From Methanoplanus endosymbiosus (lineage in GTDB: Archaea; Halobacteriota; Methanomicrobia; Methanomicrobiales; Methanomicrobiaceae): a stretch of 64,000 nt of DNA. The position numbers and the translations under genes were made by a program. Positions within the stretch are counted from its first letter, which is position 1. Every line of letters starts with the position of its first letter. Below, one piece after another: positions 27,903-35,660 of this stretch. The notes beneath the pieces were generated by a model. That model worked only from the letters and a program-made list of their open reading frames with translations. It was not told where the DNA came from and did not search any database. The stretch is from the NCBI RefSeq assembly GCF_024662215.1, contig NZ_CP096115.1:1674001-1738000 (forward strand). The letters run 5' to 3'.

Positions 27903-28008
27903 CGTGAACTACCTCTGGGCTAAAGACCCAGAGGCTTCCTGCTTCATACCCCGAATCATTGTTCGTAAGTCCACAGGCCCTTCCCCTCGTTCCAAGGGTG
28001 CAAAGATA
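27903..28008 (-). ncRNA. Predicted omega-RNA/right end of tnpB element
   Basis: Downstream of the tnpB fragment on the minus strand lies a GC-rich structured stretch ending in a perfect 8-bp hairpin (CCTCTGGG with CCCAGAGG, 7-base loop, 27914-27936) and then TAGTTCAC. This ending is the hallmark of IS1341/IS605-type right ends, where the reRNA scaffold stops and the guide starts. The guide would read leftward from about 27902. Assigned by sequence pattern; expression cannot be judged. Confidence 0.6.
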
Positions 28009-28581
28009 TTATATTCCAATTAGATTCTGTCTATCTAAAGCAAATTTCCTGATATTTATTGCGGCATTTATATCCCGGTCATGATGTATCCCACAATCCG
28101 GACAAATCCAGTCTCTATCAGATAAAGTCAAATCCCTGTTGTAATATCCACATTCACTACAGATTTTTGTAGATGGTTCAAATTGTCCTATCTGTAAGAT
28201 AATTTTACCTTGTTTTTGTGCCTTATATTCCAATTGAGTAACAAATGAACTCCATGATGCATCAGCAATATGTTGTGCCAGTTTATGATTTTTTAGCATC
28301 CCTTCAACATTCAAAGTTTCCAGTGCAATTGCTTGGTTCTCGCATACTAATCTAAAAGATAGTTTGTGCTGGAAATCGCTTCTTTGATTATGAATTTTTT
28401 CATGGATTTTTGCTACTGCATTTTTTGCTTTATTTCTGTTGTTAGAACCTTTTTGTTTTCTACTCAATCGTTTTTGCAACACTTTCATTCGGAGAATTGA
28501 CTGTTTCAAATATCGGGGATTCTCAATCTTTTCCCCATTGGAAAGTATTGCAAAATCTTTGATACCTACATCAACACCCAT
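28009..28581 (-). pseudogene. tnpB: TnpB (IS200/IS605 OrfB) C-terminal fragment
   Basis: 190 aa with the RuvC nuclease parts of TnpB. The first Asp is in GVDVGIKDFA, the Glu in ALETLNVEGM, and the last Asp in DRDINAAINI. The zinc ribbon CSECGYYNRD...CPDCG is also present. Full TnpB proteins are about 370-400 aa, so the N-terminal recognition and wedge region (roughly half) is missing. The reading frame runs upstream without a stop into the ATPase fragment at 28582-28738, forming an in-frame junction near 28585. All catalytic residues remain, but guide-RNA and target binding are probably lost, so I call it a relic. Confidence 0.8.
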
Positions 28582-28738
28582 GGTTGTATTTACATCAAAA
28601 ATTGTTGATTTGCCGCTTCCATTAGGACCAAGAAAAACCGTAAAAGGGGGTGAGTTCCTTCAGTTCAAGATCACGCAAAGCACGATAATTTTTTACGGTA
28701 AGTTCCTCAATTCGTGGAACGGATAATTCCGGATTCAT
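28582..28738 (-). pseudogene. N-terminal fragment of an AAA/SMC-like ATPase (P-loop)
   Basis: ATG at 28738 behind a good AAAGGGA site gives NPELSVPRIEELTVKNYRAL and RDLELKEL, the start of RecF/OLD-type AAA ATPases. After one extra base in a T run near 28640 the frame shifts to FTVFLGPNGSGKSTIFDV, a full Walker A. The protein then stops being ATPase and becomes TnpB. The family is common in nuclease-linked defence systems. The upstream region still has a plausible promoter. Confidence 0.7.
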
Positions 28739-28801
28739 TACAATTCCCTTTAATTATCTGATAGATATCAGACAATTGTCTGCATTTATATAAATAAACT
28801 A

Positions 28802-29044
28802 TTGGGTTTGAAAATACCTGCTCCCGATGGTAAAATGGGAATTACAGATGTTGCCAACGCAGAACAGCTTTTTTAGCTTATTCAGTCAGTACCATCACCA
28901 AAAGCCAAACCCTTCAAAATCTGGCTTGCAGAAGTTGGAAACGAGAGAGTAAATGAAATTGCTGATCCAGAACTAACTATTGACAGAGCACCATGTACAT
29001 ATCGAAAAAAGGTCACTCTAAAAAGATTACAATACGGAGGCTAA
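28802..29044 (+). pseudogene. Phage antirepressor / BRO-like relic
   Basis: One frame gives LKIPAPDGKMGITDVANAEQ, LF, an amber TAG (28874-28876), then LIQSVPSPKAKPFKIWLAEV, GNERVNEIADPELTIDRA and TYRKK. The block from LIQS to DRA is the diagnostic core of a well-known phage/BRO-N antirepressor family (usual wording RLIQSIPSPKAEPFKxWLAxVG). The protein then diverges and ends at TAA 29042, well short of full length. The stop, missing start and truncation mark it as a dead gene. It shows that phage-type DNA once lay here. Confidence 0.75.
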
Positions 29045-29067
29045 ATTAAAAAATAAAACTAAAATAA

Positions 29068-29141
29068 TGGACTCGTCGAGATTCGAACTCGAGACCTCTG
29101 CCGTGTGAAGGCAACGTCATGACCAGCTAGACCACGAGTCC
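29068..29141 (-). tRNA. tRNA-Val (anticodon CAC)
   Basis: 74 bases on the minus strand. Acceptor GGACTCG pairs with CGAGTCC plus discriminator A (29068, CCA not encoded). The T arm is TCGAG-TTCGAAT-CTCGA, and the anticodon stem TTGCC/GGCAG (closed by a T-G pair) surrounds loop TTCACAC with CAC at 29107-29105. A paralogue lies at 35761-35834 and differs at two stem positions only. Confidence 0.9.
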
Positions 29142-29256
29142 CATTAAATATTCAGCCAGGATAAAACCATGGCTTTCTTCGGAGATCAGACAGATGTTCC
29201 CTGCCGGAATTATCCAGATACTATTGCCTCCCATTAAATATTAAGTAGCTGTAATT

Positions 29257-30486
29257 TTATAAGTCGTCCACGACATAGTAACATTCATCCTTTGGAGCAA
29301 TAGTATAATTCCATTCACCATGAAATTGATTTGGGAGAAGGAACAATTCGTTCATCTCTTCTTTTGATACTTTCCTTCCAAGAGGATATGAATTGTTATC
29401 AACACAACATTGAACCGTCAATCCCTTAGATGTTCTTGTATTGGCGATTAAATTTACTATTGTCTCCATATTAATCAATGGTCTTCCTCTCCAATTTTTA
29501 GAGATTGCAGAAAATAAGCGATGCTCAATTTTATTCCACTTGCTTGTTCCTGGCGGAAAGTGGCAGACTGACACCATAAGGTTAAATTCGTCACAAAATT
29601 TTTGCAATTCAACTTTCCATGCTTTTCTCCTATAACCATTACTACCTCCAGAATCTGCTGTTATAAGAAGAGATTCTGCATTGGGGTATATTTCCTGACC
29701 CATAGTTATCCACCATCTCCTGATGCTTTCAACTGCAAATTCTGATGTTTCATGATCTACACCTACATTGACCCAACCGGAGTTATTGCTGATATCATAA
29801 ATTCCATATGGTATTGCTTTCCCAAGTTCTTTATCAATAAAATCATGATCCTTGACTTTGACAGGCTTACCCTTAGGACGCCATTCCTGCCCTTTATTTG
29901 TGTAATTCCCAATATTTTCCTTCTTTTTGCAATCAACAGAAATTACTGGTTGGTTATGGGTCTGATACTTTTTGACAAATTCATTAATGAATTCAAATTG
30001 TTTGTTTCTGTCCTCATGGGATTTGCCTTCTTCAGTTTTCCTTGGTGCCTGAAGGCTGTAACCCGAATAATTCAATAGCTTTGAAACACAAGTATGGCTT
30101 ACATTATGCCCTTTATTTATTAATTCCTCAGCTAAATTCCTTGTACTTAGACATGTCCACCTTAGAGGTGATTCGGGATCTCCTCTCGAAGTTGGCTCAA
30201 TAAGAAAGTCTAGATCATTAATTAATTCAGGATCAATCTCTGTTATTTTTTTCCTTCCAGCTCCTTCAGATCTAACTTTGTCATATGGATAAATCTCTCC
30301 AGAATCTAATTGTTTTCTTCCAATATTTATTGTAGATCTTGACATCCCTGTTATTTTAGAAACATTTGTAACTCCACCACGACCATATGAATTAGCCATA
30401 GTTGAAGCAAAGATCCTTATTTGCCTCTCATTTAGATGAGGTGTTAGGTCCTCGTAAATATTTGCAATGAAAGCATCCAGATCCAT
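29257..30486 (-). CDS. ISAzo13-family transposase
   Basis: 409 aa, ATG at 30486. It matches the ISAzo13 family pattern throughout: RSEGAGRKKITEIDPELI, SLRWTCLSTRNLAEEL-like region, ISVDCKKKENIGNY (first catalytic Asp), ESIRRWWITMGQEIYP, SLLITADSGGSNGYR (second Asp), VCHFPPGTSKWNKIEHRLFS (Glu in IEHRLF), ISKNWRGRPL and the tail FHGEWNYTIAP. Length is close to the usual for the family, so the gene may be intact. I did not find convincing terminal inverted repeats in 29142-29256 or 30487-30532. It sits directly after the 1142-aa gene in the same direction. Confidence 0.9.
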   Translation of the reverse strand: MDLDAFIANIYEDLTPHLNERQIRIFASTMANSYGRGGVTNVSKITGMSRSTINIGRKQLDSGEIYPYDKVRSEGAGRKKITEIDPELINDLDFLIEPTSRGDPESPLRWTCLSTRNLAEELINKGHNVSHTCVSKLLNYSGYSLQAPRKTEEGKSHEDRNKQFEFINEFVKKYQTHNQPVISVDCKKKENIGNYTNKGQEWRPKGKPVKVKDHDFIDKELGKAIPYGIYDISNNSGWVNVGVDHETSEFAVESIRRWWITMGQEIYPNAESLLITADSGGSNGYRRKAWKVELQKFCDEFNLMVSVCHFPPGTSKWNKIEHRLFSAISKNWRGRPLINMETIVNLIANTRTSKGLTVQCCVDNNSYPLGRKVSKEEMNELFLLPNQFHGEWNYTIAPKDECYYVVDDL

Positions 30487-33974: not shown

Positions 33975-34808
33975 TTATGCCCAGTTATAGATGGCTCCTC
34001 GTCCCTGGTATTTCATCTCTGAAATAAAATTGTCTATTCCAATTGAAACAACCTTTAAAAGAGGAGTTAAAGTTATTTTTCTATCCTTATCGGTTTTCAC
34101 CATGCCGCTAGGAGTAAGCATAAAATATGAACATTCCATATCTTCTGCGGATTCAAAAACAGGTGAAGTAAAGTTTTCAAGAACTACATTTCTATGCCGT
34201 TCTACAAAATATCTGAAATCAGAATGAGATATTTCCAGATCCCTTGCAAAATCGTTTTCCCCATCAATGTGCATCATCTGTAAAACCTTCCACCGATCAG
34301 GATTTAACATTCTAATCAAGGGAATCATATTCTCCTGATAAGTCAGTGAATTTACACAGGTATTAACTTTAAGTTTTATTCCGACCTGATGGATATAATA
34401 AGCTGATTCAAGACTTTTAGTGACATGATCCCCTAAACCTCTGCCAAGTTTCCGCTCAATTTCATCAAGACAAGAATCAATCGAAAGACCAATCCAATCT
34501 ACACTTCCAATCATATTTCTGATTAAATCTTGTGTGAGTTTAGAACCGTTTGTTGTGATTGAAACTGTAAATCCAAGTTTTTTCGCACATTTACAATAAT
34601 CCAGAATATTCGGATGAAGAAGAGGTTCTCCCCCGGCAAAATTAATTTTGGTCATACCCATTTCTGCAAGAATTTTTAGAATTTCAACGCCTTTTTCAAA
34701 CTTTATTGGTTTATCAGGGAAGTTTTGAGCAAAGCAAAATCTGCAACGATAATTACAATATGGTGTAACATGCCAATTGACCGATTTGATGACAGGCTCT
34801 TTGAACAT
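33975..34808 (-). CDS. Prokaryotic viperin (radical SAM ddh-nucleotide synthase)
   Basis: 277 aa, ATG at 34808. Viperins use a [4Fe-4S] cluster and SAM to convert CTP, GTP or UTP into 3'-deoxy-3',4'-didehydro nucleotides that terminate phage RNA synthesis. The match is specific, not just radical SAM: SVNWHVTPYCNYRCRFCF (CxxxCxxC cluster motif), KINFAGGEPLL, VSITTNGS, LSIDS, LGRGLG, NPDRWKVLQMMHIDGEN, FRYFVERHRNVVLENF, CSYFMLTPSGMV and the closing YQGRGAIYNWA, which is the viperin C-terminal signature. First gene of a two-gene operon with the TPR/HEPN protein. Divergent from a CARF-like regulator. Which nucleotide it uses cannot be told from the sequence. Confidence 0.9.
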   Translation of the reverse strand: MFKEPVIKSVNWHVTPYCNYRCRFCFAQNFPDKPIKFEKGVEILKILAEMGMTKINFAGGEPLLHPNILDYCKCAKKLGFTVSITTNGSKLTQDLIRNMIGSVDWIGLSIDSCLDEIERKLGRGLGDHVTKSLESAYYIHQVGIKLKVNTCVNSLTYQENMIPLIRMLNPDRWKVLQMMHIDGENDFARDLEISHSDFRYFVERHRNVVLENFTSPVFESAEDMECSYFMLTPSGMVKTDKDRKITLTPLLKVVSIGIDNFISEMKYQGRGAIYNWA

Positions 34809-34845
34809 GAATCATAGGTCAACAAGCGAAGTGATAACTGTATTT

Positions 34846-34858
34846 TGTAACCGTTACA
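34846..34858. promoter_or_regulatory. 13-bp palindrome between viperin operon and CARF-like regulator
   Basis: TGTAAC-C-GTTACA is a perfect 6+6 inverted repeat with a one-base centre. It lies 38 bases before the viperin ATG and 44 before the regulator ATG, and directly upstream of AT-rich TATA candidates on both sides (TTTATGAT near 34862 for the plus strand, AAAATACA-like near 34843 for the minus strand). Its position fits a shared operator for the winged-helix regulator. Confidence 0.5.
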
Positions 34859-34901
34859 GAATTTATGATACTATTTTTGTGTGTGGAGCTAATATTAAGA
34901 T

Positions 34902-35660
34902 ATGCCTGATCATCGCCAGGAGCATTTGCTGATCATAAGTGCAGGTGAACACATCCATAACACCTATTCAATTACTGTCCAAAAATACGACCCTTCACAT
35001 GTTTTCGTATTAGTCGAAGATGAAATACTTAATAATCATAAAGATGATTCTGAAATCCTAAAAAAGAGAAAAGCTAACATTAAAAAATCAATTGCAGAAG
35101 TGAAAAATCGCGTTGACTCTGATAACCGGAGAGAATTTAAACTCGTTCGTCTTTCAGAACTTCATCAGGATGTAATTCGAGATACTATCCTTAAGATTCG
35201 CAATGAACACAGGGATGCAGCTTTTTCATTTAATGTCACTGCCGGAACTGCCCTTTTTTCCACAAGTCTCTTTCTAATGGCTGTATGGCTTGGAGGAAAT
35301 GTTTGTATTACCAGAACTTCTGATTCTCTGATTGAATTAAAAATTCCTAAAATGTCAGTTACTGAACTGGAAAATTATCCGAATCTTATAAGAGTTGTAC
35401 TGGTACTTGGAAAAAAAGTCCGTAACAAGAACGATGATATCAGTGACGGATGGATAAAAAACAAGGATATCTTAATCAAGCTTGGTGTGATTAAGTCCAG
35501 TTCGGATCGCCCGAGTGGTAGTGACAAGGTAAACCAATCACGAGATATGAAGAGGCTCAAATCATGGGATCTCGTTGAAGAAAAAAGATCGGGAAGAGAT
35601 GTTCTGTACCGGCTTACTTCCAATGGGATATTTGCATATAATATCTTTAAAGAGCAGTGA
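34902..35660 (+). CDS. CARF-like/winged-helix regulator (Csa3-type architecture)
   Basis: 252 aa. Residues 1-155 form a Rossmann-like domain: LLIISAGEHIHNT in strand 1, then HVFVLVEDEI, and the hallmark FNVTAGTALFSTSLFLMAVW (about 110-129), comparable with the D/N-x-T-G-G-T ligand loop of CARF proteins. A winged-helix domain follows (about 160-250) with RDMKRLKSWDLVEEKR (recognition helix) and VLYRLTSNGIFAY (wing and end). CARF domains bind cyclic or linear nucleotides, and Csa3 proteins regulate CRISPR genes, but no CRISPR is here. I infer that it controls the divergent viperin operon in response to a nucleotide. Proteins of this build are also annotated DUF6293. Confidence 0.78.
   Translation: MPDHRQEHLLIISAGEHIHNTYSITVQKYDPSHVFVLVEDEILNNHKDDSEILKKRKANIKKSIAEVKNRVDSDNRREFKLVRLSELHQDVIRDTILKIRNEHRDAAFSFNVTAGTALFSTSLFLMAVWLGGNVCITRTSDSLIELKIPKMSVTELENYPNLIRVVLVLGKKVRNKNDDISDGWIKNKDILIKLGVIKSSSDRPSGSDKVNQSRDMKRLKSWDLVEEKRSGRDVLYRLTSNGIFAYNIFKEQ

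Follow-up and report, generated by a model that had tools for sequence, protein, structure and literature searches.

A two-site palindromic array between a viperin operon and a csa3 gene of Methanoplanus endosymbiosus as a probable Csa3 operator

The window analysed, a stretch of 64,000 nucleotides from Methanoplanus endosymbiosus, carries a viperin gene and a divergently oriented gene for a Csa3-type regulator, with the gene of a TPR protein placed behind the viperin (Table 1). The viperin sequence contains the radical SAM cysteines (CNYRCRFC) and scores above the curated cut-off for prokaryotic viperins (pVip). The TPR gene beside it, presumably co-transcribed with it, assigns the pair to the viperin-TPR system, which has been described as restricted to archaea (PMC12988326). 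The regulator had been called CARF-like in the original prediction, and this description is borne out by the PADLOC match, the AlphaFold model (pLDDT 85) and the Foldseek comparison of this model with the Csa3 structure of Saccharolobus (2wte; TMq 0.57, match over its length), which together predict an N-terminal CARF Rossmann domain and a C-terminal winged HTH of the Csa3 type. No cas genes, and hence no CRISPR-Cas linkage, were found among the ORFs and families examined between window positions 28000 and 42000; Cas1 is encoded elsewhere in the genome. Within window positions 28009–30486, a 409-aa transposase (DDE_Tnp_ISAZ013) is found directly behind the TPR gene and, beyond it, a shortened TnpB/IS605 OrfB-like frame (28009–28581), so that mobile elements stand on the flank of the defence unit.

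Table 1. Coordinates of the genes and predicted sites at the viperin–csa3 locus (window positions)
Feature	Position	Strand	Evidence or remark
TPR protein, 1142 aa	30533..33961	-	PADLOC TPR PDLC02907, E 1.9e-32; 13 bp behind viperin
Viperin (radical SAM, pVip)	33975..34808	-	NF038283, 259 bits against a cut-off of 180; PADLOC pVip, E 7.1e-76
Divergent promoter spacer viperin/csa3, 93 bp	34809..34901	.	
Operator site 1 (predicted), core GTAACCGTTAC	34847..34857	.	38 bp to viperin ATG; 55 bp (first base to A of ATG) to csa3 ATG
Operator site 2 (predicted), GATACTATTTT	34867..34877	.	Weaker copy of site 1, 20 bp from it; overlaps presumed csa3 BRE/TATA
Csa3-type regulator, CARF + winged HTH, 252 aa	34902..35660	+	PADLOC Csa3, E 2.6e-75

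The two start codons (viperin ATG at 34808 on the minus strand, csa3 ATG at 34902) enclose a spacer of the length originally claimed, and the perfect 6+1+6 palindrome TGTAAC-C-GTTACA reported within it was found as described when the sequence was re-read (TGTAACCGTTACA, 34846–34858). It can be extended to 10+10 with one mismatch (ATTTTGTAACcGTTACAGAAT, 34842–34862). TGTAACNGTTACA has a single exact match in the one-contig genome of 3,163,021 bp, and one-mismatch versions of the single site are found at 25 other positions, against 14 for the reversed control pattern. Taken alone, this palindrome is weak evidence, being only mildly unusual: of the dinucleotide-preserving shuffles of the spacer, 3.1% contain a perfect 6+1+6 palindrome and 25% an inverted repeat with 6-bp arms and a loop of 0–10. 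The statement that such a repeat is hard to explain otherwise was therefore too strong for this sequence by itself.

The relatives are far more informative. The search for Csa3-like genes covered 232 genomes of the order, 393 of the phylum and 112 of family f8. More than 30 loci, from Methanomicrobiales and another archaeal family, have a csa3 adjoining a viperin gene, nearly always divergently; among the carriers with a name are Methanocorpusculum parvum, Methanoculleus sp. UBA303, a Methanofollis and Methanocalculus taiwanensis. Almost every Methanomicrobiales spacer of this kind holds a palindrome of the GTAACnGTTAC or GAAACnGTTTC type, the exceptions being locus L010, with no clear palindrome in its spacer, and L020, with a degenerate site only. 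Of the 18 Methanomicrobiales loci in which the palindrome is recognisable, 13 have its end exactly 38 bp from the viperin ATG, three have it at 39 bp and two at 40 bp, loci of one genus not being independent and L065 and L066 being near copies of L007. Its first base lies 52–56 bp from the csa3 ATG (61–62 bp in three loci), start codons and core promoters being predictions and the distances for L014, L016 and L019 being measured from the conserved M-x-x-P-H start. The half-site itself varies by lineage (GTAAC, GAAAC or TAGATTA-like) and, between lineages with GTAAC/GTTAC and with GAAAC/GTTTC, both arms of the palindrome change symmetrically. An RNA hairpin or terminator was discarded on the grounds that its loop would be 1 nt and that these changes are symmetric on DNA. 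Absence from orthologous loci had been named beforehand as a result that would refute the prediction, and the palindrome proves to be kept by almost every viperin locus of the order that is linked to Csa3. Two of the loci (L065, L066) stand on contigs filed as Acholeplasmataceae and as a Bacteroidales MAG and are nearly identical to the Methanocorpusculum locus L007, a filing that probably reflects binning contamination. In genome G591 (L074) two viperin-like genes (5–499 and 528–1370) are arranged in tandem on one strand and adjoin Csa3.

In two relatives (L008 and L009) the arrangement is changed, csa3 and viperin lie in tandem, and the palindrome is present twice per locus. The copy before viperin (GTAACTGTTAC, GTAACAATTAC) stands 38 bp away from that gene's ATG in both, and the copy before csa3 (GTAATCATTAC, GTAATTATTAC) at 55 and 54 bp from the csa3 ATG; one copy per gene at the usual distance is what would be expected if one regulator acts on both promoters. 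Among the 26 viperin loci of the order, five are without a Csa3-like neighbour, and the palindrome is absent from the 38-bp position in all five (0, 0, 0, 3 and 1 of 5 pairs). Since the relatives keep the palindrome at a near-constant distance from both genes, even after rearrangement, it very probably represents a genuine control element. Csa3 genes of family f6, which have no viperin beside them, differ in their upstream sequence; those of L021–L034, L048, L050 and L055 share a conserved promoter, approximately ccgga..caaccatttatc..tccgga, immediately ahead of the ATG, which seems to be a separate operator belonging to another group of Csa3 proteins.

Regulator and effector differ in their histories when L006, L008 and L009 are compared with window 33975–35660, as if modules were swapped at the viperin start codon. 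L006 has 83% of Csa3 residues and 57% of viperin residues in common with the window, whereas L008 and L009 share about 75% in viperin and about 45% in Csa3. The spacer follows csa3 more than viperin, as seen in the nucleotide identities between L005 and L006 (spacer 77%, csa3 85%, viperin 69%), and regulator and operator seem to travel together. Genome G120, of the same genus as the window, carries two Csa3-viperin units (L008 and L063) with operators of the GTAAC and GAAAC classes, a possible case of insulated paralogous regulation.

The spacers also contain a second copy 19–20 bp from site 1 towards csa3, which is evident only through the relatives and not from the window alone. It reads GAAACTATTAT in L007 and GAAACAATTTA in L014, and forms a full palindrome in L047 (GAAACTATTTC). 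Across relatives the repeat identity peaks at lags 19–20 among lags 12–35, and the combined two-site score over 17 clusters of loci is 318, against 271 ± 6.5 in shuffles, none of 300 of which reaches that value. The 20-bp spacing, as judged by eye, is also present in the f8 loci with the TAGATTA-like half-site. In a genome search the two-site pattern, written from these same loci, matched once in each of four genomes, at csa3 every time, and the reversed control pattern gave no match; a global regulon marked by this two-site pattern was accordingly rejected. In most loci site 2 stands 34–36 bp ahead of the csa3 ATG, where it probably overlaps the csa3 BRE/TATA, and some of its conservation may therefore stem from the core promoter rather than from an operator. 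The symmetric placement between two promoters claimed originally does not hold in the presence of site 2, as the strong site borders the presumed core promoter of viperin, the weak one sitting on that of csa3. The original proposal of an operator is thus supported by the relatives' spacers, with two sites in place of a single palindrome and a half-site that differs between lineages.

The spacer is best read (probability about 0.82, judged from sequence comparison) as an operator at which Csa3 would bind both sites, repress csa3 and control the viperin-TPR operon, in other words as the shared operator-promoter of a self-contained defence unit. In this model the Csa3-type regulator, as a CARF dimer with two winged helices, would bind the palindromic site 1 and then, cooperatively, the weaker site 2, which lies some two turns of the helix further on and faces the same side of the DNA. 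Occupation of site 2 would repress csa3, an autoregulation suggested by the position of this site on the presumed csa3 BRE/TATA, and site 1, just upstream of the presumed viperin BRE/TATA and 38 bp before the ATG, would set transcription of viperin and TPR. The Ser, Thr or Asn of the recognition helix appears to track the half-site class, a suggestive correspondence seen in two independent pairs, with L063 and L078 as exceptions. By analogy, the proposed operator is favoured by the palindromes of Csa3a upstream of the BRE in Sulfolobales (PMC8699464) and by a Methanosarcina CARF protein that binds its own promoter (PMC7465815); the promoter binding of Saccharolobus Csa3a in vitro, which was non-specific or cA4-independent (PMC8699464, PMC8844856), would count against it.

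Given an operator, the sign of its action on viperin is finely poised, with activation from site 1 at about even odds. Archaeal activators often bind directly upstream of the BRE, and several loci have a poor viperin TATA region. Together with the palindromes placed upstream of the BRE for Csa3a of Sulfolobales, CAPPa at 12 bp (PMC8699464), these points lean slightly to activation by analogy, and repression relieved by an infection signal, with a chance somewhat under one half, fits nearly as well. In the latter case Csa3 would repress both promoters from the same operator until a ligand releases it during infection, which is quite possible: the presumed viperin BRE is partly covered by the extended palindrome, and regulators in defence islands commonly repress a divergent target. 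Csa3b is a repressor in Sulfolobus (PMC8844856). Such a derepression switch fits less well with a site 1 core that lies upstream of the presumed viperin TATA and not on top of it, and the poor TATA regions agree slightly better with an activator-dependent promoter.

It is improbable that the palindrome serves another, unlinked transcription factor, for instance a global stress or redox regulator, and not the adjacent Csa3. The 25 further one-mismatch sites would suit such a factor, but the two-site pattern, in the four genomes where it was found, occurs only at csa3, the viperins without Csa3 have no palindrome, the class of the site shifts between lineages along with the adjacent regulator, and csa3 retains the palindrome when parted from the viperin promoter. 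That both sites are mere core promoter elements, in the form of back-to-back BRE/TATA, is very improbable; the GAAAC of site 2 followed by A/T-rich DNA at its distance from the csa3 ATG does resemble a BRE plus TATA, but about 7 bp separate site 1 from the viperin TATA-like region in L007, site 1 is palindromic with symmetrically changing arms, and it is absent from viperin promoters without Csa3. A chance palindrome without function, which the frequency of loosely defined inverted repeats in shuffled spacers (25%) might suggest, has a negligible probability in view of a position that is held with base-pair precision in different genera and persists through gene rearrangement, and of the shuffle test over the 17 clusters.

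If Csa3 is the regulator of this operator, the signal perceived by its CARF domain is probably not a cyclic oligoadenylate made by Cas10, as this enzyme is absent and the equivalent of a ligand-contacting arginine is replaced. Cas10 is the maker of the usual CARF ligand in type III CRISPR signalling, and its palm2 domain (PF22335) was not found in the genome of the window. The same domain is absent from 22 of the 25 genomes with a Csa3-viperin pair and present in three, whereas Cas1 is encoded in all 25; as a control, the search gave matches in 5 of 14 named genomes, including Methanosarcina acetivorans. In motif 2 for cA4 binding (L-x2-G-h-R) the window Csa3 reads V-TA-G-T-A, with Ala117 at the basic position. 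Most relatives read SGGTK, the window TAGTA and its clade TGGTA or TAGTA, the outer relatives having Lys. Ala117 is the motif equivalent of Arg98 in Csa3Sso, which contacts cA4 and whose replacement (R98A) abolishes cA4 binding (PMC8844856); a cA4-responsive function is therefore not claimed. A CBASS cyclase (PF18144) as the source of a ligand gave no match in the genome of the window, and the matches in other genomes, near or below the cut-off and mostly to frames of about 460 aa resembling CCA-adding enzymes (an identity deduced from this resemblance), were rejected. It is conceivable, though unlikely, that this is an archaeal CARF regulator uncoupled from type III CRISPR, a stand-alone sensor of the viperin operon for a non-Cas10 ligand such as ddhNTP (a viperin product) or an infection-altered nucleotide, in which case viperin chemistry may feed back. 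That CARF regulators stand beside viperin genes in organisms which for the most part lack Cas10 raises the question of the molecule sensed.

With respect to known systems, the locus agrees with the archaeal viperin-TPR system in the order viperin then TPR protein, the PADLOC models for pVip, TPR and Csa3 all matching it (PMC12988326). The literature searched, mostly outside subscription journals, describes no operator or regulation for this system and no control of prokaryotic viperins in general, a topic little explored. A defined 40-bp operator with a candidate regulator makes archaeal viperin control directly testable, and natural variants are at hand in the three half-site classes, the tandem rearrangement and the two units in one genome. 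A close parallel is Csa3a with CAPPa in Saccharolobus and other Sulfolobales (PMC8699464, PMC8844856), likewise a CARF-wHTH dimer regulator with a palindrome just upstream of the BRE/TATA of a defence operon, for which published docking studies likewise assume that each binding region holds two copies of the palindrome. CAPPa, however, reads TCCCN8GGGA and is located at cas adaptation genes and CRISPR leaders, whereas the array GTAACnGTTAC described here lies at a viperin operon and csa3; Csa3a contacts its ligand through Arg98, where the present protein has Ala117 in a genome without Cas10. MM_0565 of Methanosarcina mazei is also a methanogen CARF-wHTH protein and binds its own promoter around the BRE/TATA, a property proposed here for the Csa3 of the window, but no distinct motif was found for it, it is CRISPR-linked, it affects the casposon cas1-solo and it has no viperin (PMC7465815). 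The WYL-domain regulators of phage-defence islands of the BrxR type (PMC9122601) resemble the present case as local regulators of an adjoining defence operon, WYL and CARF both being predicted ligand sensors fused to wHTH (PMC4012209), and differ from it in their sensor domain and in acting at bacterial promoters.
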